Below are positions 6,456 through 63,451 of a stretch of 64,000 bases of DNA, piece after piece (positions within the stretch are counted from its first letter, which is position 1; each line of letters begins with the position of its first letter). Location of the stretch: IMG/VR virus record IMGVR_UViG_3300021197_001752, positions 62,001 to 126,000 of that record, one strand, 5' to 3'. A model generated the notes under the pieces. It did not search any database and was not told the DNA's origin. It worked only from the letters and a program-made list of their open reading frames with translations. Position numbers and translations under genes: made by a program. Source of the stretch: a virus.

Positions 6456-6780
6456 TGGTGGAGGTAGGGGGAATCGAACCCCCGTCTTGTCTAGTTCCAC
6501 AGAAAGGTCATTCACAAGGTTAGGTCTGTTTTTATCGTCAGACAGCCCACTTGACTAGATCATTTTATTATGGCTAAGATGATCAAAAGCACTTATAGGA
6601 CAAAAATACGGCTTTCTGTTTCTTGGCTGCCGTCGCCTCAAGTTAAGTCAGGTTATTAAGCTGCTAATGCTAGTTGAAAATCGTCGTTTGCGATTAAAAG
6701 TTTAAGCGTTTTTAGTGAGCCACGCTTCCCTCACCCTTGCACCTTTTCTACTTCCCCATCAGTCGATACCGTTTACCCCC
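6456..6780 (-). ncRNA. ssrA: tmRNA (one-piece)
   Basis: A complete 325-nt tmRNA. The 5' GGGGGTA and 3' TACCTCC form the acceptor stem, including the G3-U70 pair needed for alanylation. The 3' end carries a T-arm with TTCGATT and an encoded CCA. The resume codon GCA is at 6691 and the tag reading frame runs to TAA at 6656-6658, encoding ANDDFQLALAA. Its LAA end is the ClpXP recognition signal. tmRNA frees stalled ribosomes and marks the unfinished protein for proteolysis. A phage-coded ClpP-like protein lies at 52987-53739. The gene has its own promoter and terminator. Phage tmRNAs are known but uncommon. Confidence 0.95.
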
Positions 6781-17110: not shown

Positions 17111-17136
17111 ACAAAAAAGCCCCCTTTCGGGAGCTT
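17111..17136 (-). terminator. Rho-independent terminator of tRNA/TilS operon
   Basis: Minus strand AGCTCCC-GAAA-GGGGGCT hairpin (one G-U pair) followed by TTTTTTGTTTT, nine bases after the last tRNA. Confidence 0.9.
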
Positions 17137-17144
17137 ATTGTGTT

Positions 17145-17220
17145 TGGTGCCCAAAGTAGGACTTGAACCTACAACCTTCGGTTTACAAAACCGCTGCTCT
17201 ACCAGTTGAGCCATTCGGGC
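17145..17220 (-). tRNA. tRNA-Thr (anticodon UGU)
   Basis: 76 nt with encoded CCA. Acceptor GCCCGAA/TTTGGGC, D stem GCTC/GAGC, anticodon loop TTTGTAA and T-loop TTCAAGT all fold. The loop places UGU at 34-36, reading ACA/ACG threonine codons. Confidence 0.95.
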
Positions 17221-17221
17221 A

Positions 17222-17298
17222 TGGTAGTCCACCGAGGAATCGAACCTCGAACCTACTGATTATGAGTCAGTTGCTCTAACCAATTGAGCTAGTGGACC
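17222..17298 (-). tRNA. tRNA with CAU anticodon, probably tRNA-Ile2 (lysidine target)
   Basis: 77 nt with encoded CCA; acceptor GGTCCAC/GTGGACT, loop CTCATAA, T-loop TTCGATT. CAU could be Met or Ile2. The acceptor holds C4-G69 and C5-G68, the two pairs E. coli TilS uses to pick tRNA-Ile2 over elongator tRNA-Met, and a tilS gene starts nine bases upstream. It is therefore called Ile2, which after lysidine formation reads AUA. Confidence 0.85.
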
Positions 17299-17307
17299 AC
17301 AGTTCTG

Positions 17308-17910
17308 TTAGTTGTTATTATACCTGCTTTCTACAATTTTTTTAAATGTTTTTTGGATACCTGGGTTAATTTCTTTTGCAACGGGCATCATGTCATGTCT
17401 AATAATACTTCTCATAAACTTTCTATTATTATTGCCAGGGTCAGTTAGGAAAGGAACATTCTTCCGTGTGCACCAGTCAACTAAGTTTTGTTTTGAGGTA
17501 GATAAGAAAGGACGGATAACATTTTTATTTTGATAAGGGATAAACTTTCCTTTACCATGTACAGATGAAAATAGAAACCACTCAATAACGTCGTCTAAAT
17601 TATGTCCAGTTACAATGGGTAGTTTATAGTCATGAAATCGCTTGTAGCGTTCATCCCGCCAGTGCTCCTCAAGTGACTTGCCGCTTGGACGAGATTCTGA
17701 TAAAACGCTGGTTACAAATGGGATTTTCTTACCTGCGCAATAGCTTCTAAGAAAGTGATAAGCTTCGTCGCCAAAGGTTGTACCATGATCAAAATAGTAT
17801 GCTGTAACATTATGATTATTATTAAGGAAATCTAAGATAGCCATAGAATCAGGACCACCACTAACGGCGACTACTAACTCCCTGGGTAACTTCCCTAAAA
17901 CTTTCAGCAT
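17308..17910 (-). CDS. tilS: Minimal tRNA(Ile)-lysidine synthetase
   Basis: 200 residues. It modifies C34 of the CAU tRNA-Ile to lysidine using ATP and lysine, which changes charging from Met to Ile and decoding from AUG to AUA. Residues 13-20 are the N-type PP-loop VVAVSGGPDS. VTGHNLDDVIEWFLF is the second conserved block, and FLTDPGNNNRKFMRSIIRH is the TilS DPSNxxxxFxRxxIRH signature. Cellular TilS proteins have an extra C-terminal domain (E. coli 432 residues); only the catalytic core is kept here. The gene sits between tRNA-Arg and tRNA-Ile2 and shares their transcript and terminator. Confidence 0.92.
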   Translation of the reverse strand: MLKVLGKLPRELVVAVSGGPDSMAILDFLNNNHNVTAYYFDHGTTFGDEAYHFLRSYCAGKKIPFVTSVLSESRPSGKSLEEHWRDERYKRFHDYKLPIVTGHNLDDVIEWFLFSSVHGKGKFIPYQNKNVIRPFLSTSKQNLVDWCTRKNVPFLTDPGNNNRKFMRSIIRHDMMPVAKEINPGIQKTFKKIVESRYNNN

Positions 17911-17922
17911 CTCGAAACTCCT

Positions 17923-17999
17923 TGGTGATCCAGGCAGGATTTGAACCTGCGACCCACGGTTTAGAAGACCGTTGCTCTATCCAACTGAGCTACTGGACC
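17923..17999 (-). tRNA. tRNA-Arg (anticodon UCU)
   Basis: 77 nt with encoded CCA. Acceptor GGTCCAG/CTGGATC, anticodon stem ACGGT/ACCGT with loop CTTCTAA, T-loop TTCAAAT. Reads AGA/AGG, codons often rare in bacterial hosts. Confidence 0.95.
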
Positions 18000-18004
18000 A
18001 TATG

Positions 18005-18079
18005 TGGAGCGGATGGTAGGACTCTCACCTACGTCTTTTGAATGGTATCCAAACGCTTTGATCCCTAAGCTACATCCGC
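18005..18079 (-). tRNA. tRNA-Gly-like, unusual anticodon ACC
   Basis: 75 nt. Perfect acceptor GCGGATG/CATCCGC with U73 and encoded CCA. The anticodon stem TTTGG/TCAAA closes loop ATACCAT, giving ACC at 34-36 with U33 and A37. G1-C72, C2-G71, G3-C70, C35, C36 and U73 are the E. coli tRNA-Gly identity set, which supports glycine. The T-loop TGAGAGT lacks the usual TTC, so function is less certain. It would read GGU. Confidence 0.7.
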
Positions 18080-18084
18080 AAAAG

Positions 18085-18170
18085 TGAAGAGTTTTCGCCC
18101 AAGTACGCTTAGGGCTCCTGTCCATATTTGTATCTAACCCTACAAACCGTTTTCCACACGCAACTCTTCA
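18085..18170 (-). ncRNA. Structured RNA element of unknown class
   Basis: A perfect 9-bp inverted repeat (TGAAGAGTT / AACTCTTCA) encloses two hairpins: TTTGTA/TACAAA with an 8-nt loop, and GCCCTAAG/CTTGGGC with loop CGTA and one bulge. GAAA separates the second hairpin from the closing helix. It sits six bases upstream of tRNA-Gly on the same transcript. No T-arm or D-arm of tRNA type can be formed. Function unknown; it may guide processing or be an independent small RNA. Confidence 0.5.
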
Positions 18171-18279
18171 AAGGTATGTGGTTACTGAAGGTAGGGACGC
18201 TGGCTCTTTATGCTTCCTGCCAGATCGGTTCGGGTTTAGCCCTGACACTTATCTTCGTCTTGTGTATTTATTTTTCATT
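18171..18279 (-). other. Non-coding spacer before tRNA island
   Basis: No open frame with a ribosome site. A CTGGC/GCCAG hairpin and a GGG/CCC hairpin are visible on the minus strand. Probably the leader of the tRNA transcript or the 3' end of the small-gene mRNA. Confidence 0.4.
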
Positions 18280-19312: not shown

Positions 19313-19340
19313 ATAATACCACACTATATCAAAGTGTCAA
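19313..19340 (-). promoter_or_regulatory. Cassette promoter (sigma70-like, 16-nt spacer)
   Basis: TTGACA (19335-19340), 16 nt, TATTAT (19313-19318), then the shared leader AAATTGTAAGGGAG that includes the ribosome site. Drives 19292 to 18280. Confidence 0.8.
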
Positions 19341-36367: not shown

Positions 36368-36923
36368 AATCTAACTCCACATCTGCTTCAACTTCATTGC
36401 CATGCACGTCCCAGCCATCGGCGGCGGTTCTGGCAAACATTTCTAACTTGGCTTGTTCTGGGAACATCTCTTCAATTCTCTTTCTTACTTCCTCTGGCTT
36501 GGCGCTGTGTTTCCCTCTCATCACTGAGACCATCTGCCGAATGTTGCGGGCACCTCGTGGTTTTGGGATCTTGCCTCGCTTGCCAATCAAACAAAGCTCG
36601 ACTTGGCTCATGGTATAAAACCCTGGGTTGACCTTTTGCTTATCCCAGACAAACCCCACAGTTGCCCAGGAGAACCCCCAGGCCTTCAATAGTTCAATCG
36701 CTTGATCAAGGTGCGGACTCGTTGCCCACATAAACATCAAGCAGTCGTCGTCGCACAAACTTGGTACATCTAACTTCTTTAGATCCTTGAGCTTCATACA
36801 GCCGTAGTGCTTGGTTGCGCCGCCGCTGTCGCTACCACCCTGACCCGTATGCTGAAGCTGCCCCTTATAATCCCAAGGCGGATCTGCATAGATAATCTGA
36901 TATTTCTTTACTTCGTCTTGCAT
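36354..36923 (-). CDS. MT-A70-family adenine-N6 methyltransferase
   Basis: 189 residues. IIYADPPWDYKG holds the DPPW catalytic motif of MT-A70 enzymes; CLMFMWATSPHLDQAIELLK and SWATVGFVWDK are their next conserved blocks, and LEMFARTAADGWDVHGNE is the usual family ending. Transfers methyl from SAM to N6 of adenine in DNA (RNA in eukaryotic relatives). Overlaps the second methyltransferase by 16 bases. Probably protects phage DNA from restriction. Confidence 0.88.
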   Translation of the reverse strand: MQDEVKKYQIIYADPPWDYKGQLQHTGQGGSDSGGATKHYGCMKLKDLKKLDVPSLCDDDCLMFMWATSPHLDQAIELLKAWGFSWATVGFVWDKQKVNPGFYTMSQVELCLIGKRGKIPKPRGARNIRQMVSVMRGKHSAKPEEVRKRIEEMFPEQAKLEMFARTAADGWDVHGNEVEADVELDFVSQ

Positions 36924-37651
36924 AGAACCTCTAACCTTTCGAGGGATTTATTAATATACTCTTCATCAAATTCACAGCCCCTAAACGATCGACCTGTATT
37001 TGAACAGGCAATCATCGTTGATCCTGAGCCGCTAAAACAGTCTACCACAGTATCGCCAGGTTGTGTATGAGCTTTTATGATTCTCTCTAGCAATGAGATG
37101 GGTTTCTGGGTAGTGTGCCAGCCTGCATATTCCTTGCTTGTGGTGTGGTTGTTCTTAGTCCAAACATCAGTCGGTATCTTGCCCAGCGGATTGTTGCTGG
37201 CAGTGGCACGAACATTCTTCTTCATCTTGTAGGGCACTCGGATATCATCAGCATGAAATGGAAACTCTTTACCTTTGGAATACATTAATATATCTTCATG
37301 CTTACGGGGAAACTTCTTCTTTGTTCTGCCGCCCCAGTCGTAAGCCCAAATAATCCAGTTTTGATAATGGGCGTCTGGTATCTCGTTGAGAACGTTCAGT
37401 TTATACCTTAGGAACGTGTCTGTCTTCGTTGTGCCCCAAACATAAAAGCAGGCACCTGGCTTCATGATACGGAAACATTCCTCAGTCCAAACCTTGCACC
37501 AATCTAGATACTCTTGCTCAGAGTCCCACTGGTTATCCCAAGCATCTTTGACAATCTCAAAGTAGGGCGGATCAACCACAACAAGGTCGGCTGATTCATC
37601 ATCAAGGGTGCGAAGATATTCCAAACAATCTGCGTGCTTCAAATCAATCAT
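36908..37651 (-). CDS. DNA methyltransferase (DPPY type)
   Basis: 247 residues. LVVVDPPYFEIV is catalytic motif IV (DPPY), and VDCFSGSGSTMIACSNTGR near the C-terminus is motif I (SAM binding), so the order is catalytic first, as in beta-class N6-adenine or N4-cytosine enzymes. HTTQKPISLLERII is the conserved 'KP' block between. No restriction partner is adjacent; with the MT-A70 enzyme it gives the phage two methylation activities. Recognition site unknown. Confidence 0.92.
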   Translation of the reverse strand: MIDLKHADCLEYLRTLDDESADLVVVDPPYFEIVKDAWDNQWDSEQEYLDWCKVWTEECFRIMKPGACFYVWGTTKTDTFLRYKLNVLNEIPDAHYQNWIIWAYDWGGRTKKKFPRKHEDILMYSKGKEFPFHADDIRVPYKMKKNVRATASNNPLGKIPTDVWTKNNHTTSKEYAGWHTTQKPISLLERIIKAHTQPGDTVVDCFSGSGSTMIACSNTGRSFRGCEFDEEYINKSLERLEVLCKTK

Positions 37652-47422: not shown

Positions 47423-49006
47423 TTATTCCACTTGTTCCCGTAAAACCGAGCAGTTTGTAGTAATTAAAATACCCGCTGCTGAGGAAGCGTTTGTAACTGC
47501 TGATTTTGTTACTTTCACTGGGTCTATAACACCCACCTCGATCAAGTCCTCGAAGCGACCTGAGCGGACATTGAAACCTATCAACTCAGTGCCCTCCTCT
47601 GTAGGGATCGAGTTGATAACAACGTCACTAGAGATGCCAGCATTATCTAAGATCTGTCGTAGCGGTGAGTAGCAAGCTGTGATCAAGGTTTGATACCCAA
47701 GCAACTCACCCCGAGTCTCAAAGTTTCTCTCTGGTAAAGCCATTGCCGCTCTGATCAGACTGATGCCGCCGCCTGGTACTACACCTTCTTCTTGGGCGCT
47801 GCGCACAGCCTCAAGCGCATCTTCAAATCGATGCTTCTTCTCTTCGACCTCTACCTCTGTTGCACCGCCGACCTGTAGCAGAGACACCCCTGATGCAAGA
47901 CGGGTGATCCTTTCCTGTATCTTACCTGCCTGATGAAGATCTTCCGTAGCCTCAACTTCGTTCTTCAAGGTCTCCACTAAAGAATCCATCTCCTCAAAGT
48001 TGGTGTTGCCGCCAACAAAGGTTGTCCTAACCTTAAGGATCTCTACACTCTTACATGTACCTAAGTGCTCTAACTTGATATCGCTTAGACGGATGCCACT
48101 GTCACGACTGATAAATGTGCCTCCTGTTGTCGTAGCAATATCAGATAAGATAGCTCGGCGCTCCTCGCCGTATTCAGGTACCTTGATTGCAGCGATCTTC
48201 ATTCCGTTACGCATACGGTTGATAATCAAGGCTGCCAGCAATTGACCAGAGATCTCTTCGGCGGCAATGATACAAGGCCTTCCATCTCTAGCGATGACCT
48301 CAAGTACTGGTAGCATCTCCTCCAGTGAATCAAGCTCGTGATCTGTTGTCAGCACTAAAGCATTATTATATTCTACTGCATTTCTTCTGTGGTCAGTAAC
48401 AAACTTAGCTGAAACATAACCTGCTGCAACTTTGAAACCCTCAATGACGTCTAGCTTGGTCTCTAACGACCTGCTCTCTTCAATCTTAACTGCTCCGTCC
48501 TTACCTGCTGCAACTACCGCTGATGCGACTAGCTTACCAATAGTGCTGTCCCCATTCGCTGAGACTGTGGCAACATGCTGGATGTCTTCCTCTGACGAAA
48601 TAGGACTAGACATAGTATCTAGCGTACTCAGGATATCCTCAGTAGCCATGTCAATGCCACGTTTCATCTCAACGCCTGAAACACCTACCGCTAATTGTTT
48701 CTGAGCTTCCTTGAGCAAGTCACGGGCAATCACGACAGTCGTAGTCGTGCCATCGCCACTAGCCTTCTCCGTTTCCATGCTAGCCTGGCGAACCACGTCA
48801 ATCCCTGCCTGCTCAAAGTCATCCTCCACTTGCACTACTCGTGCGACACTGACGCCATCCTTAGTTACAATGGGTGGTGCCCCTCGTTGATACAGGATAA
48901 CATTCTGTCCTGCTGGTCCGAGCGTTGAGCTAACAGCGTTTGCTAGCTTGTTCACCCCTGCCAATAATTTGTTCTGTGTCTCTGCGCCAAATAATATATT
49001 TGCCAT
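47423..49006 (-). CDS. groEL: Phage GroEL-type chaperonin
   Basis: 527 residues, full length for a group I chaperonin. TLGPAGQNVILYQRG and KDGVSVARVV at the N-terminus, EKASGDGTTTTVVIARDLLK (ATP site), a complete apical region, and EEGVVPGGGISLIRAAMALP at the C-terminal equatorial domain. The usual GGM-rich tail is absent. It folds proteins in a closed cavity, with host or phage GroES; none is seen here. Own strong terminator. Likely assists folding of large virion proteins, together with the phage J-domain protein. Confidence 0.95.
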   Translation of the reverse strand: MANILFGAETQNKLLAGVNKLANAVSSTLGPAGQNVILYQRGAPPIVTKDGVSVARVVQVEDDFEQAGIDVVRQASMETEKASGDGTTTTVVIARDLLKEAQKQLAVGVSGVEMKRGIDMATEDILSTLDTMSSPISSEEDIQHVATVSANGDSTIGKLVASAVVAAGKDGAVKIEESRSLETKLDVIEGFKVAAGYVSAKFVTDHRRNAVEYNNALVLTTDHELDSLEEMLPVLEVIARDGRPCIIAAEEISGQLLAALIINRMRNGMKIAAIKVPEYGEERRAILSDIATTTGGTFISRDSGIRLSDIKLEHLGTCKSVEILKVRTTFVGGNTNFEEMDSLVETLKNEVEATEDLHQAGKIQERITRLASGVSLLQVGGATEVEVEEKKHRFEDALEAVRSAQEEGVVPGGGISLIRAAMALPERNFETRGELLGYQTLITACYSPLRQILDNAGISSDVVINSIPTEEGTELIGFNVRSGRFEDLIEVGVIDPVKVTKSAVTNASSAAGILITTNCSVLREQVE

Positions 49007-49012
49007 CTTACT

Positions 49013-50032
49013 CTACTCCCCACGTTCTTTCGGATAGGACAAGCCTACCTTTTTTGGATTATTATCATTGAACAACTTGTATAGTTGTTTTGTTTCTTTC
49101 TTTGTTCTGCCTAAGATAAAACAGTACTTGTGCTTCGGTGGCACGACACGCCACTCACAGCTTTCTCGGTACTGTTTCTCTTTGGCTTTGAGCTTGTCTT
49201 TCAAGCCAGGGGTAGTAACTTCCATTTCTTTCCATTTGGGAGTATACTTACCCATGTATTTCTTCCATTCGCTAGCACCTATGCCTAATGACTCAGCATA
49301 GCGTTTATATTTAGATTTCTTGCGAAAATCTCTATCACTAAACCAACCTCGGGCTTTGTCCTTAGGATCACGATATACTTTCGCTGTGCCCGACGTTTGA
49401 CCAAGGTAGGTCCAGTTGAGTGCCTGGTAGATTGTCCCTAACTCTTTAGCAAGAGGATCACTGTAGGCTTCAAACGCTCTGAACCTTGTGTTCTGAACCA
49501 TCCACTTACACGATCTGGATACAATCCAAGATCCCAAATTCTTAGGAGCCCAACTGATAGACGCACCTCGTGATACTAGCTTGACCATGTTCTTGTTATC
49601 TTTACCGATCAGGTGGCTGAAGGTATTAGGAACTGCCATAACCACAACGCCTGCTAACTCGCCTGTCTTTTTCATCCTAGCTGTGAACCTGTGGGTTGGT
49701 CGATTAGGGAGACAACCTAGGAACTCGTGGCGAATAATAAAGTCTCTGACCTCATCGCATTGTTCTTTGTACTTCTTGACGTCGGCTCTGTATTCCTTAT
49801 GTTTCTTCTTATACACTTTTTCAGTATAACAATGTGGCAGCATCAGCTTAGCGGGTTCCGCAACAGCCACAAAGTCAAAGTCAGTAGTGCGTAGAGACTC
49901 AGCCCATGCCAAGTCCTTACCTATCTCTTGTAGGTCTTCTTGCATGTTGCGAAGCCTAACTTCGTATTGCCAACAATGCTCTGCTTCTAAATCTTTGAAT
50001 CGCTCAAAGGGGTCAGCTTTCTTAGCTTTCAC
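49013..50032 (-). CDS. Mom-like GNAT DNA-modification protein
   Basis: 339 residues. Residues 125-225 include TARMKKTGELAGVVVMAVPN, LVSRGASISWAPKNLGSWIV, SRSCKWMVQNT and AFEAYSDPLAKELGTIYQAL then NWTYLGQTSGT, which follow the order of phage Mu Mom, a GNAT-fold enzyme that converts DNA adenine to a carbamoylmethyl derivative and blocks restriction. Both ends carry extra basic helices not in Mu Mom. GTG start at 50032. Together with two methyltransferases it suggests heavy DNA modification. Confidence 0.75.
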   Translation of the reverse strand: MKAKKADPFERFKDLEAEHCWQYEVRLRNMQEDLQEIGKDLAWAESLRTTDFDFVAVAEPAKLMLPHCYTEKVYKKKHKEYRADVKKYKEQCDEVRDFIIRHEFLGCLPNRPTHRFTARMKKTGELAGVVVMAVPNTFSHLIGKDNKNMVKLVSRGASISWAPKNLGSWIVSRSCKWMVQNTRFRAFEAYSDPLAKELGTIYQALNWTYLGQTSGTAKVYRDPKDKARGWFSDRDFRKKSKYKRYAESLGIGASEWKKYMGKYTPKWKEMEVTTPGLKDKLKAKEKQYRESCEWRVVPPKHKYCFILGRTKKETKQLYKLFNDNNPKKVGLSYPKERGE

Positions 50033-59996: not shown

Positions 59997-62900
59997 TTAT
60001 AAAAGCCTAAGATTATGCTTGATACTATAGGTACTAAATCCCCATCGTGGTTCGTGCTTGAGCTTGCCAACGTAAATACGATTAGTTTTAATGATGTCCG
60101 TGTCTTTCACACCCCAGCATTTGATCTGCTCATCCGCCCCGTTGTGATCGGTGACTGACACAATATAATATTTCTTACCGTGCTTTGTCTTCTTGACTTT
60201 AATCTCTCTTGGGATGAACCAACAAAGAATCAATTCTGGATCATACTCGGAAATCGGTGGGCAGCCTTTGTTCATAAGAGACTCCCGTGTAAAGTCATCC
60301 ATGATAAGGTCAATAGGATAGATACCTGTTAGAGTCGTTAGATGCTCTATCTTTTCTTCCTTTGTGAAGCTACCTTCATCTTTATATGTTTCGATATTTT
60401 CATTTAGGTTCTTCTCCTTGCGTGGACGATCGACAGCCACAGAAGACCAAAAGTGCTTCATGCCTGTGAAGCGATCATCCATCAACTCATTGAGCGCCTG
60501 GCTGCGCACTAGGACGTCCAACGCCTTCTTGTTGAGCTTGGAGTACGTAATGTCTTCATTGAAAATAAACTCTTCAATCTTGTTGAAGGGTCGATTATCT
60601 AGGATCTGCTGAATGGCTGTTGAGCCCAAGCCCTTGATCGCAGTCAATGGTTGGATCAAGTTCTTGCCGTCGGCGTCAATCTCCCAAACCATCCCTGACT
60701 TGTTGATGCTAGCAGGAACAATATTGAACCCAAACTTCTTAGCTGTGTTGATTGCTGCCATCTTGCGCTTTTCTGGTTCTTTATCTAAGAACGCTGCGAT
60801 CCACTCGGTCGGATAGTAATGTGCCAACCAAGCGCACTGGAACGACACTGCCCCATACGAAACTGCGTGTGACAGGTTGAAGCCATAGCCTGAGAAGAAT
60901 ACCATCTTTGCCCAAAGGTCTTTAGCAACCTGCTCCGATAGTCCCTTATCATTACAACCTTTGAGGAACTTAGCATAGATCTTCTCTCTTACACTGTCCT
61001 TGCCCGTACCACGCTTAGTAAGAACTTTGCGGAGGAGGTTCCCTTCGTCTAGTGTGATGTTGTCTCCCAGCTTGTGAGCCAGCATAGCCAACTGCTCTTG
61101 GAACACTAACAGTCCGTATGTATCCCCTAGCACTTCTTCAATAAGCGGGTGCTTATATACTACCTGATCTGGATTACTCTTGTTGGCGATATACATCTGA
61201 TCTGCTTTTGCCGACAAAGGTCCTGGTCTAAAGATCGCCGTGATGGCTGCAAAGTCCATAAGTGACTCTGGCTTGGCTTCTTGACAGAAGGCCTGTGCAG
61301 GTCCACTAGTCATTTGAAAGACGCCTGCCCACTTGCCCTTATGGAAGATGTTCTCCCAGACTGCCTGGTCATCAAAGTCAATCACATTAGGATGAAGTTG
61401 CTCGTCGTAGAAGGCACGTACCTGCTCAAACGTTGGATCTTCAATACCGTGGTGGCGCTTCAAGACGTGGCGAATTGCTCCCGAGATCATGCGGAGAGTT
61501 GATAGCCCAAGCAAGTCAAACTTAATAAACCCTAGCGGTTCCAAGTGTCGAACGTTCTGACCCTCGCTCCATGGAGTCTGCATCACGCCACCTGAGTTGA
61601 TCAATGGCATATGCTTATCTAGATTCTCTGCCACTACGATACCGCCTGCGTGCCTACTAACACTGCGGACATTACCAAACAGGTTATCAACATGTGTAGC
61701 AATATGCGGATACTTATCAAAGAACTCCTGAAGCGTTTCGCTATATTCTTTTACCTCATCAAACGTTGGAACATAAACGCCCGCTGTTTGTCCGTGCGCT
61801 GCCTTAGCCTTGGGGGTAGCCTCGCTCATCATGACGCCCGTAACTTTATTCACCTCTGCAAAGGGGACGCCATAGAACTTGCCAATGTCCTTGATAAGTG
61901 AGCGCAACTGTAGTGTATTGAAGTTGCTAATTGGTACGACGTTGACGCCGAGCTTGCCCCACTCTTCTGCTAGCTGCTCCTTGAGTTGCATTGGCTCCTC
62001 AACATCGAAATCAATATCGGGATAGCCTTTGCCGCCCTTGGTCAAGAACCTCTCGAACTGAAGGCTGTACTTGATCGGATCAACCTGGGTAATGTCTAGG
62101 ACGTAGGATAGCAACGATCCTGCTGCCGAGCCTCGCCCGAGACCAACAAGCATCTCCTCTTGTGCCCTATCGCTAATAGCCTTCATAGTCAAAAAGTATT
62201 GGGCGAAGCCACGGTCCTTGATGACAGACAACTCATACTTGAGCCGCTCGACATACTCTGGATCTTTTAGGTCTTTCTCCTTTAGTCCCTTCAAAGCCTG
62301 CCTTGTTAGTGTTTCCATCGCTGTCGTGCCCTCTGGAACAACAAAGTCTGGCAACCGCACCTGACTATCTGGAAGGAAGTCTTCAATCCGATCGTATGCA
62401 ATATGATGTGTGCGCTCGATGCTGGCACGGACAAAGCTGTCATCATACTCAATCTTAGATCGCCCTGCATATTTCTCATATGCCTCCCACATCTGATCAC
62501 CGTTGCGAGGATACAACTCGTAGCCGATCTCCTCTACCGATTCTGGTAGTCGATGGGCGTCCTGATCTTCATAAGGAGCTTTACCTCCCCACCCAATGCG
62601 GCGATACATCTCACGGTCCTTCCACAACTCTGGTCGTGGGTAGTGACTGTCGGATGTACTGATAACCTCTGCGCCCATCTCTGTGCAAGCTTGGATGATT
62701 AGATCGTTGACAATGTGCTGCTCGGAAATATCGTTCCACTGGATCTCCCCATAGAACCTATCACCAAAGATGTCTTGAAACTCACCGATCGTCTGGCGCA
62801 TCGATGCTAAAACCATATCTGCGTCGTACTCGTGTGTGACTGGATCACGGTGTTTCCAAAAGTCCCCAAAGAGCGGTCCCGACATGCAAGCACTGCTGAC

Positions 62901-63425
62901 GATCAACCCCTCATTATGCTTGTCCAACATCTCAAAGTCAATGCGGGGGTAACGGTAAAAATTCTCGGGACGGTAACTGTCCGATACAAGCTTGAATAGA
63001 TTATTCAAACCGACTTGGTTCTGCGCTAGGATGACCAAGTGCCTGCGGATGTTGAGGGGGTTGAACTTCTTTTGCCTGTTCTCATCCTCGACAACCATAG
63101 CAAACTCTTCTTTCTTCTGGCGCTTGCTGTTGGCTTTATGTTCTTCGTACTGCTGCCGCCACTTCTTATGCGACTTAATAAAGTAAGCCTCGCAACCGTA
63201 GATGGCTTTGAACTCCTTACCTTCCTCACGCATCTTCTTAAGATGCTCAACCTGAAATGATAGCCCGTTCATATGACCATGGTCTGTGAGCGAGTGGGCG
63301 TTCATCCCATTCTCAAAGGCGAAGTCCATATGTTCGCCTGGCATACCTAAGCCATCAAACGGGGAAAGTCCTGAGTGGGCGTGGAGTCCCACAAAAGGAA
63401 TCTTGCTCTCGATTCGTTTTGTCAT
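59997..63425 (-). CDS. dnaE: DNA polymerase III alpha subunit-like (DnaE)
   Basis: 1142 residues from ATG 63425, six bases after AAAGG (an in-frame TTG at 63431 is also possible). The N-terminal PHP domain begins VGLHAHSGLSPFDG (metal-type His) and has LTDHGHMNGL and SDSHYPR. The palm holds LVGLGRGSAAGSLLSYVLDI and YPDIDFDVEEP, the two catalytic Asp of C-family polymerases, then FNLSHAVSYGAVSFQCAWLA. The C-terminus has an OB-like segment (YYIVSVTDHNGADEQIKCWG). It replicates phage DNA; most T4-like phages use a B-family enzyme instead, so this marks the lineage. Driven by a near-consensus promoter. Confidence 0.95.
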   Translation of the reverse strand: MTKRIESKIPFVGLHAHSGLSPFDGLGMPGEHMDFAFENGMNAHSLTDHGHMNGLSFQVEHLKKMREEGKEFKAIYGCEAYFIKSHKKWRQQYEEHKANSKRQKKEEFAMVVEDENRQKKFNPLNIRRHLVILAQNQVGLNNLFKLVSDSYRPENFYRYPRIDFEMLDKHNEGLIVSSACMSGPLFGDFWKHRDPVTHEYDADMVLASMRQTIGEFQDIFGDRFYGEIQWNDISEQHIVNDLIIQACTEMGAEVISTSDSHYPRPELWKDREMYRRIGWGGKAPYEDQDAHRLPESVEEIGYELYPRNGDQMWEAYEKYAGRSKIEYDDSFVRASIERTHHIAYDRIEDFLPDSQVRLPDFVVPEGTTAMETLTRQALKGLKEKDLKDPEYVERLKYELSVIKDRGFAQYFLTMKAISDRAQEEMLVGLGRGSAAGSLLSYVLDITQVDPIKYSLQFERFLTKGGKGYPDIDFDVEEPMQLKEQLAEEWGKLGVNVVPISNFNTLQLRSLIKDIGKFYGVPFAEVNKVTGVMMSEATPKAKAAHGQTAGVYVPTFDEVKEYSETLQEFFDKYPHIATHVDNLFGNVRSVSRHAGGIVVAENLDKHMPLINSGGVMQTPWSEGQNVRHLEPLGFIKFDLLGLSTLRMISGAIRHVLKRHHGIEDPTFEQVRAFYDEQLHPNVIDFDDQAVWENIFHKGKWAGVFQMTSGPAQAFCQEAKPESLMDFAAITAIFRPGPLSAKADQMYIANKSNPDQVVYKHPLIEEVLGDTYGLLVFQEQLAMLAHKLGDNITLDEGNLLRKVLTKRGTGKDSVREKIYAKFLKGCNDKGLSEQVAKDLWAKMVFFSGYGFNLSHAVSYGAVSFQCAWLAHYYPTEWIAAFLDKEPEKRKMAAINTAKKFGFNIVPASINKSGMVWEIDADGKNLIQPLTAIKGLGSTAIQQILDNRPFNKIEEFIFNEDITYSKLNKKALDVLVRSQALNELMDDRFTGMKHFWSSVAVDRPRKEKNLNENIETYKDEGSFTKEEKIEHLTTLTGIYPIDLIMDDFTRESLMNKGCPPISEYDPELILCWFIPREIKVKKTKHGKKYYIVSVTDHNGADEQIKCWGVKDTDIIKTNRIYVGKLKHEPRWGFSTYSIKHNLRLL

Positions 63426-63451
63426 GTGCAACCTTTACTTTGCTTTTTTAT

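Follow-up and report, generated by a model that had tools for sequence, protein, structure and literature searches.

The known tRNA(Ile)-lysidine synthetases (TilS) make contact with the tRNA through their C-terminal domains; in those type I enzymes that were studied, these domains also discriminate tRNA-Ile2 from tRNA-Met. Type I enzymes carry the domains CTD1 and CTD2, with essential residues in CTD2; type II enzymes have lost CTD2 (PMC12514573). TilS was also described for phages. The Pseudomonas phages MIJ3 and PA5oct encode a protein of about 203 aa and several CAU tRNAs; the distance from tilS to the nearest of these is about 7 kb, and no link to a tRNA was proposed (PMC6892783). For the marine T4-like pelagimyophages of group A, tRNA(Ile)-lysidine synthetase was mentioned in one sentence, with no analysis of a cognate tRNA or of codons (PMC7029224). 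The TilS of Ralstonia phage RsoM2USA is longer (349 aa), and no tRNA-Ile was annotated there (PMC8504454). In T4 and its relatives the CAU tRNA was read as Ile2, and the T4 cluster also contains Arg and Thr tRNAs (PMC1524935); lysidine was found on a vibriophage CAU tRNA (review, PMC13191261). The latter two papers name no phage tilS, and host enzymes are thought to modify the phage tRNAs.

The window, i.e. the whole stretch of DNA analysed here, comprises 64,000 bases (62001-126000) of a 146,705-base IMG/VR virus record. The genome encodes a PolIII-type DNA polymerase, ribonucleotide reductase (RNR), a DnaB-like helicase, a UvsX-like recombinase, GroEL and baseplate/tail genes. This gene content marks the source as a large tailed phage from a lineage not yet cultured; its DNA polymerase is only about 31% identical to the best GenBank phage match. 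A phage tmRNA was detected at window positions 6456-6780 on the minus strand (RF00023, 93.5 bits vs. 47), which ARAGORN did not report. A Mom-like DNA modification protein and a DNA methyltransferase (49013-50032 and 36908-37651, minus strand) suggest that the phage DNA is modified. The cluster under study is read from the minus strand in the order tRNA-Gly(acc), tRNA-Arg(UCU), tilS, CAU tRNA, tRNA-Thr(UGU) and terminator:

19313-19340, minus strand: best candidate for a sigma-70 type promoter upstream of the cluster (consensus match 11/12; the promoter hits of this region are not above the shuffled expectation)
18005-18079, minus strand: tRNA-like gene, anticodon loop read as Gly(ACC) (ARAGORN and Rfam, 56.5 bits)
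17923-17999, minus strand: tRNA-Arg(UCU), directly upstream of tilS (ARAGORN and Rfam)
17308-17910, minus strand: tilS, gene of a 200-aa single-domain tRNA(Ile)-lysidine synthetase (TIGR02432, PP-loop and acidic residues, AlphaFold2 and fold match)
17222-17298, minus strand: CAU-anticodon tRNA, probably tRNA-Ile2 and putative TilS substrate (ARAGORN and Rfam)
17145-17220, minus strand: tRNA-Thr(UGU), final gene of the cluster (ARAGORN and Rfam)
17117-17136, minus strand: intrinsic terminator (hairpin and T-run) closing the cluster

About 12-13 nt separate tRNA-Arg from tilS, about 9-10 nt tilS from the CAU tRNA and 1 nt the CAU tRNA from tRNA-Thr. The motif AGGAG sits right behind the CCA end of tRNA-Arg, ahead of the tilS ATG. 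No further tRNA turned up elsewhere in the record, of which all but the last 705 bases were searched, and no structured leader RNA at 18080-18270 (fold z 0.29, no Rfam family besides tRNA). The tRNA-like gene at 18005-18079 lacks a CCA end and has an atypical T loop (TGAGAGT). In the closest relative (L016) it is absent at that place; compared with L016, it is a near-exact insertion of 75 bases. An earlier note on this DNA had described a minimal tilS of 200 aa adjoining a CAU tRNA with C4-G69 and C5-G68, and gene calls, profile and acceptor stem agree with it. The terminator-bounded tRNA operon claimed in the same note is borne out at its downstream end; no other terminator was found.

The 200-aa open reading frame scored 112.5 bits against TIGR02432 (lysidine_TilS_N, equivalog-domain, cut-off 93.6) and 105.5 bits against PF01171; PHROGs gave no TilS family match for it. 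The PP-loop SGGPDS comprises residues 17-22. In the HMMER alignment D107 and E110 correspond to D137 and E140 of Aquifex aeolicus TilS, residues which we take to act in the lysine site; across 55 phage homologues neither of them varies, nor do most of the SGGxDS residues. With these homologues as input, AlphaFold2 gave a model with pLDDT 95.9. Searched with Foldseek and VIA-align, it matched A. aeolicus TilS (2e89) best, with Z 23.1 over all 200 residues, and the match covers residues 6-234 of 317, i.e. the N-terminal domain and linker. Another PP-loop tRNA enzyme, for instance a thiolase of the TtcA/TtuA type, would be suggested by the TtuA structures, which came next in the fold search. This assignment is extremely improbable: the TIGR02432 cut-off was passed, the TtcA, TtuA and LarE models stayed far under their own cut-offs, no CXXC motif is present, the HMMER search of structures ranked TilS first, and in the fold search TilS structures led by more than 2.5 in Z. 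The alignment to N-terminal domain and linker only includes neither the CTD1 and CTD2 of type I nor the CTD1 that type II retains. Thus, the phage TilS belongs to neither type, and both C-terminal tRNA-binding domains are missing. Since these domains matter for tRNA recognition in known TilS, the 200-aa form could be weak or in need of a partner.

Scans yielded about 74 phage loci with TilS, measuring 197-214 aa from the match start save for one copy cut by the contig end and one of 240 aa. On contigs of bacterial genomes 76 of 78 complete hits had 251-509 aa from the match start. The other two, of about 200 aa, stem from a Halobacteriovorax MAG and a Pelagibacteraceae single-cell genome; they group with the phages, a CAU tRNA is present there too, and these contigs are probably phage DNA. 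In a tree of 104 TilS the phage proteins and those two form one group (SH-aLRT 99). A long branch separates this group from 39 bacterial sequences, which were picked by similarity; as long branches meet here, the tree bears on grouping and not on origin. The TilS of about 200 aa without both C-terminal domains is, as far as the sequences tell, a phage clade. Two of the phage contigs (L078, L092) carry tilS, a CAU tRNA and a nearby tRNA with CTA anticodon (amber-suppressor type), and stop-codon recoding is possible there. In two others (L090, L095) tilS is embedded in an extensive phage tRNA array (about 20 genes, among them Ile(GAT)).

Of the 18 distinct loci in the clade of the window (duplicates removed by hand, here and in the next count), 17 have a CAU tRNA downstream of tilS, at a distance of 4 nt to 1.6 kb, and Arg(UCU) and Thr(UGU) tRNAs are usually present as well. 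Among all distinct phage loci having any tRNA near tilS, 35 of 38 have the CAU tRNA. Chance does not explain the arrangement: relatives whose TilS is 70-92% identical share it.

The annotation program called the CAU tRNA Met. Its acceptor stem, parsed likewise for the near-identical L016, consists of G1.U72, G2-C71, U3-A70, C4-G69, C5-G68, A6-U67 and C7-G66 with A73, and its anticodon loop is CTCATAA. It is no initiator, as neither C1xA72 nor the GGG/CCC anticodon stem occurs. C4-G69, C5-G68, U33, C34 and A37, the features of an E. coli-type substrate, are all present; the E. coli determinant G27.U43 is replaced by A27-U43. According to the literature, type I TilS contacts C4-G69/C5-G68, which are determinants in E. 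coli (PMC12514573); the two pairs are not general among bacteria and G27.U43 is gammaproteobacterial (PMC12069591), and for IleRS, too, C4-G69 is a determinant, though a minor one (PMC9976931). Both pairs occur together in only 9 of 35 CAU tRNAs of relatives, many of which have G4-C69 and G5-C68. Their interpretation as TilS identity pairs in the earlier note therefore stands only in so far as they are present and are E. coli determinants; they are read by domains which the phage TilS lacks, and they are not conserved. As proof of recognition by the phage TilS they were rejected, 26 of the 35 relatives being without them. Judged from this comparison, they are not the identity code of the phage TilS, and they support an Ile2 identity weakly. 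Their loss in most relatives and the program's call would fit an elongator tRNA-Met with tilS as an unrelated neighbour. We regard this as very unlikely in view of the conserved co-location with TilS, of the tRNA-Ile(UAU) carried by relatives in which no tilS was detected, and of the U72/A73 ends, which resemble those of tRNA-Ile. For the single-domain TilS acting on the CAU tRNA, lysidine formation is predicted.

In a sister group with good support tilS has been kept intact; in the one case examined (L060) it lies near a T4-type DNA polymerase. Eleven records of sister or related groups, fragments of 18-78 kb, contain tilS and zero tRNA genes when scored with the Rfam tRNA model (a CAU-tRNA sequence pattern was dropped after missing a known case). 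This group may correspond to the pelagimyophages of group A. If the absence of tRNAs is real, TilS must use host tRNA-Ile2 there; since some relatives keep tilS on tRNA-free contigs, the enzyme probably also acts on the host tRNA. One may go further and assume that the phage TilS serves chiefly to supplement or substitute for host TilS on host tRNA-Ile2 during infection, with the phage tRNA as a helpful extra. Besides the tRNA-free records, the avoidance of AUA in tilS, strongest in these loci (13/318, see below), speaks for it; the CAU tRNA near tilS in nearly all loci of the window clade and the fragmentary nature of the tRNA-free records speak against it. To this assumption we give slightly less than an even probability.

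A tRNA-Ile(UAU) reads AUA without lysidine. Such a tRNA is present in G045 (157,733 bases) and G051 (54,679 bases), both without detected tilS; none was found in tilS-bearing loci or in five large tilS-bearing records. Ten relatives found via the DNA polymerase gave no TilS match in a search run without its own positive control, and the fragment G046 has the CAU tRNA and no tilS. The distribution fits tilS and tRNA-Ile(UAU) as two solutions for one need, in small numbers; the tilS-less relatives may be incomplete contigs.

The earlier note had considered that AUA might be common in the phage genes, and a codon count bears this out: AUA makes up 33% of the Ile codons of the window phage, or 20.9 per 1000 codons, where composition predicts a share of 0.38-0.42. 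The corresponding values per 1000 codons are 4.9 for E. coli and 16.8 for B. fragilis (PMC12514573). Among the A-ending codons tested in five large relatives, AUA and AGA are the most uneven between genes; chi2/df for AUA is 3.1-4.0 in four of them with AGA second, and in the fifth AGA reaches 3.0 and AUA 2.7. In these five the PolIII-type DNA polymerase has 2 AUA in 350 Ile codons. For the DNA polymerases of the lineage (80 loci; window 59997-63431, minus strand, and L228-L307) AUA accounts for 275 of 5741 Ile codons and ACA for 0.37 of Thr codons. The genes of RNR, helicase, UvsX, dUTPase and SSB are also AUA-poor, and many baseplate, tail and neighbouring genes are AUA-rich (0.34-0.58). Exceptions are primase (6/16), head maturation protease (2/18), a large fibre-like gene (1/46) and PhoH (17/33). 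As the initial replication and virion gene sets were partly picked after the AUA values had been seen, only PHROG-annotated genes of the window phage were contrasted: replication/nucleotide genes with UvsX have about 31/291 AUA vs. 73/172 for tail/head (summed by hand, nucleotide-sugar epimerase excluded). Thus, replication genes tend to be AUA-poor and annotated tail/baseplate genes AUA-rich. The GroEL homologue at window 47423-49006 (minus strand; phrog_5725, 443.5 bits) is AUA-poor (4/40). An open reading frame of 3704 aa without PHROG match (L010:2444-13558, minus strand), beside baseplate-type genes, is AUA-rich.

AUA is rare in the tilS genes as well: of the 892 Ile codons in 64 distinct phage copies, 60 are AUA, compared with 2876/9230 (31%) in flanking open reading frames. 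It is their most depleted synonymous codon, at z -13.5 (next codon -4.2), a value that overstates independence as the tilS sequences are related. ATT and ATC are raised in its place; ACA and GTA are not depleted. The AUA share is 0.080 in tilS of the window clade vs. 0.278 in the flanks, 0.083 vs. 0.280 for other tRNA-bearing loci, and 0.041 vs. 0.371 in the group without tRNA; paired tests in the three groups, limited by the same relatedness, gave p of 7e-5, 5e-5 and 6e-8. This codon test is unselected, because the gene was fixed before any codon was examined. Bacterial tilS from 75 genomes, used as control, showed no AUA depletion (0.235 vs. 0.190).

The avoidance of AUA might reflect ordinary host-like codon usage of early genes or gene-specific composition, with no lysidine bottleneck. 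We know of no tilS in T4, which has tRNA-Ile2, and its AUA share follows the same trend from early (0.079) to late genes (0.173), as does that of RB49 without tRNAs (0.039 and 0.068). Codon differences between early and late phage genes were described before (PMC5683454), and in the window phage GC3 is higher in many replication genes. Composition would lower every A-ending codon alike, whereas the depletion in tilS is largely specific for AUA and spares ACA and GTA; furthermore, the contrast between gene classes exceeds that of T4 by far. We consider this explanation possible, though doubtful. The early/late codon bias is already known; its strength and the case of tilS are added here.

That the phage supplies both the tRNA and its modifying enzyme for AUA decoding, as first proposed from the DNA alone, is the reading best supported by the frequency of AUA, the identity of TilS and the synteny. 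A working single-domain TilS, co-transcribed with its CAU tRNA and raising AUA decoding for AUA-rich genes, is quite probable. The cluster from Gly/Arg over tilS and Ile2 to Thr would form one message, from which tRNA processing would cut a tilS mRNA reaching from AGGAG to about 10 nt past the stop codon. With its catalytic domain only, TilS would convert the CAU tRNA from a methionine type to an isoleucine type reading AUA. Both would then raise AUA decoding alongside tRNA-Arg(UCU) for AGA and tRNA-Thr(UGU) for ACA, and AUA-rich genes, in the annotated set mainly tail and baseplate, would benefit. Nearly free of AUA, tilS and most replication genes could be translated before AUA capacity exists. 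An early-expressed enzyme lifting lysidine capacity for AUA-rich, probably late, genes describes this best, with the timing read from annotation. The stricter form, in which AUA is a translational gate with lysidine-tRNA-Ile2 limiting, early genes free of AUA, early TilS opening the AUA-rich late genes and the tRNA recognised by its anticodon arm alone, is unlikely in our opinion.

Earlier papers cover phage TilS (PMC6892783, PMC7029224, PMC8504454), tRNA-Ile2 of phages (PMC1524935) and a phage tRNA bearing lysidine (PMC13191261). The pairing is not new in kind, since phage TilS and phage tRNA-Ile2 were each published. No description of the single-domain clade, the adjacency, the UAU alternative or the AUA-poor tilS was found in the literature searched, mostly without subscription papers, and priority is uncertain to that extent. 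If true, the clade of about 200 aa without C-terminal domains would represent a minimal form of lysidine synthetase, with which the seat of specificity could be tested cleanly. The near-absence of AUA in phage but not bacterial tilS offers a pointer, specific and open to test, to AUA decoding as a limit on these infections, and turns the vague notion that phage tRNAs aid translation into a defined prediction of enzyme and codon. The TilS of MIJ3 and PA5oct belongs to the same clade and is 40% identical. Cellular TilS of type I (E. coli, G. kaustophilus) and type II (A. aeolicus, M. smegmatis) have the same catalytic domain with PP-loop and conserved acids; in contrast to them, the phage TilS is devoid of CTD1 and CTD2, stops after the helical linker and forms a separate clade.
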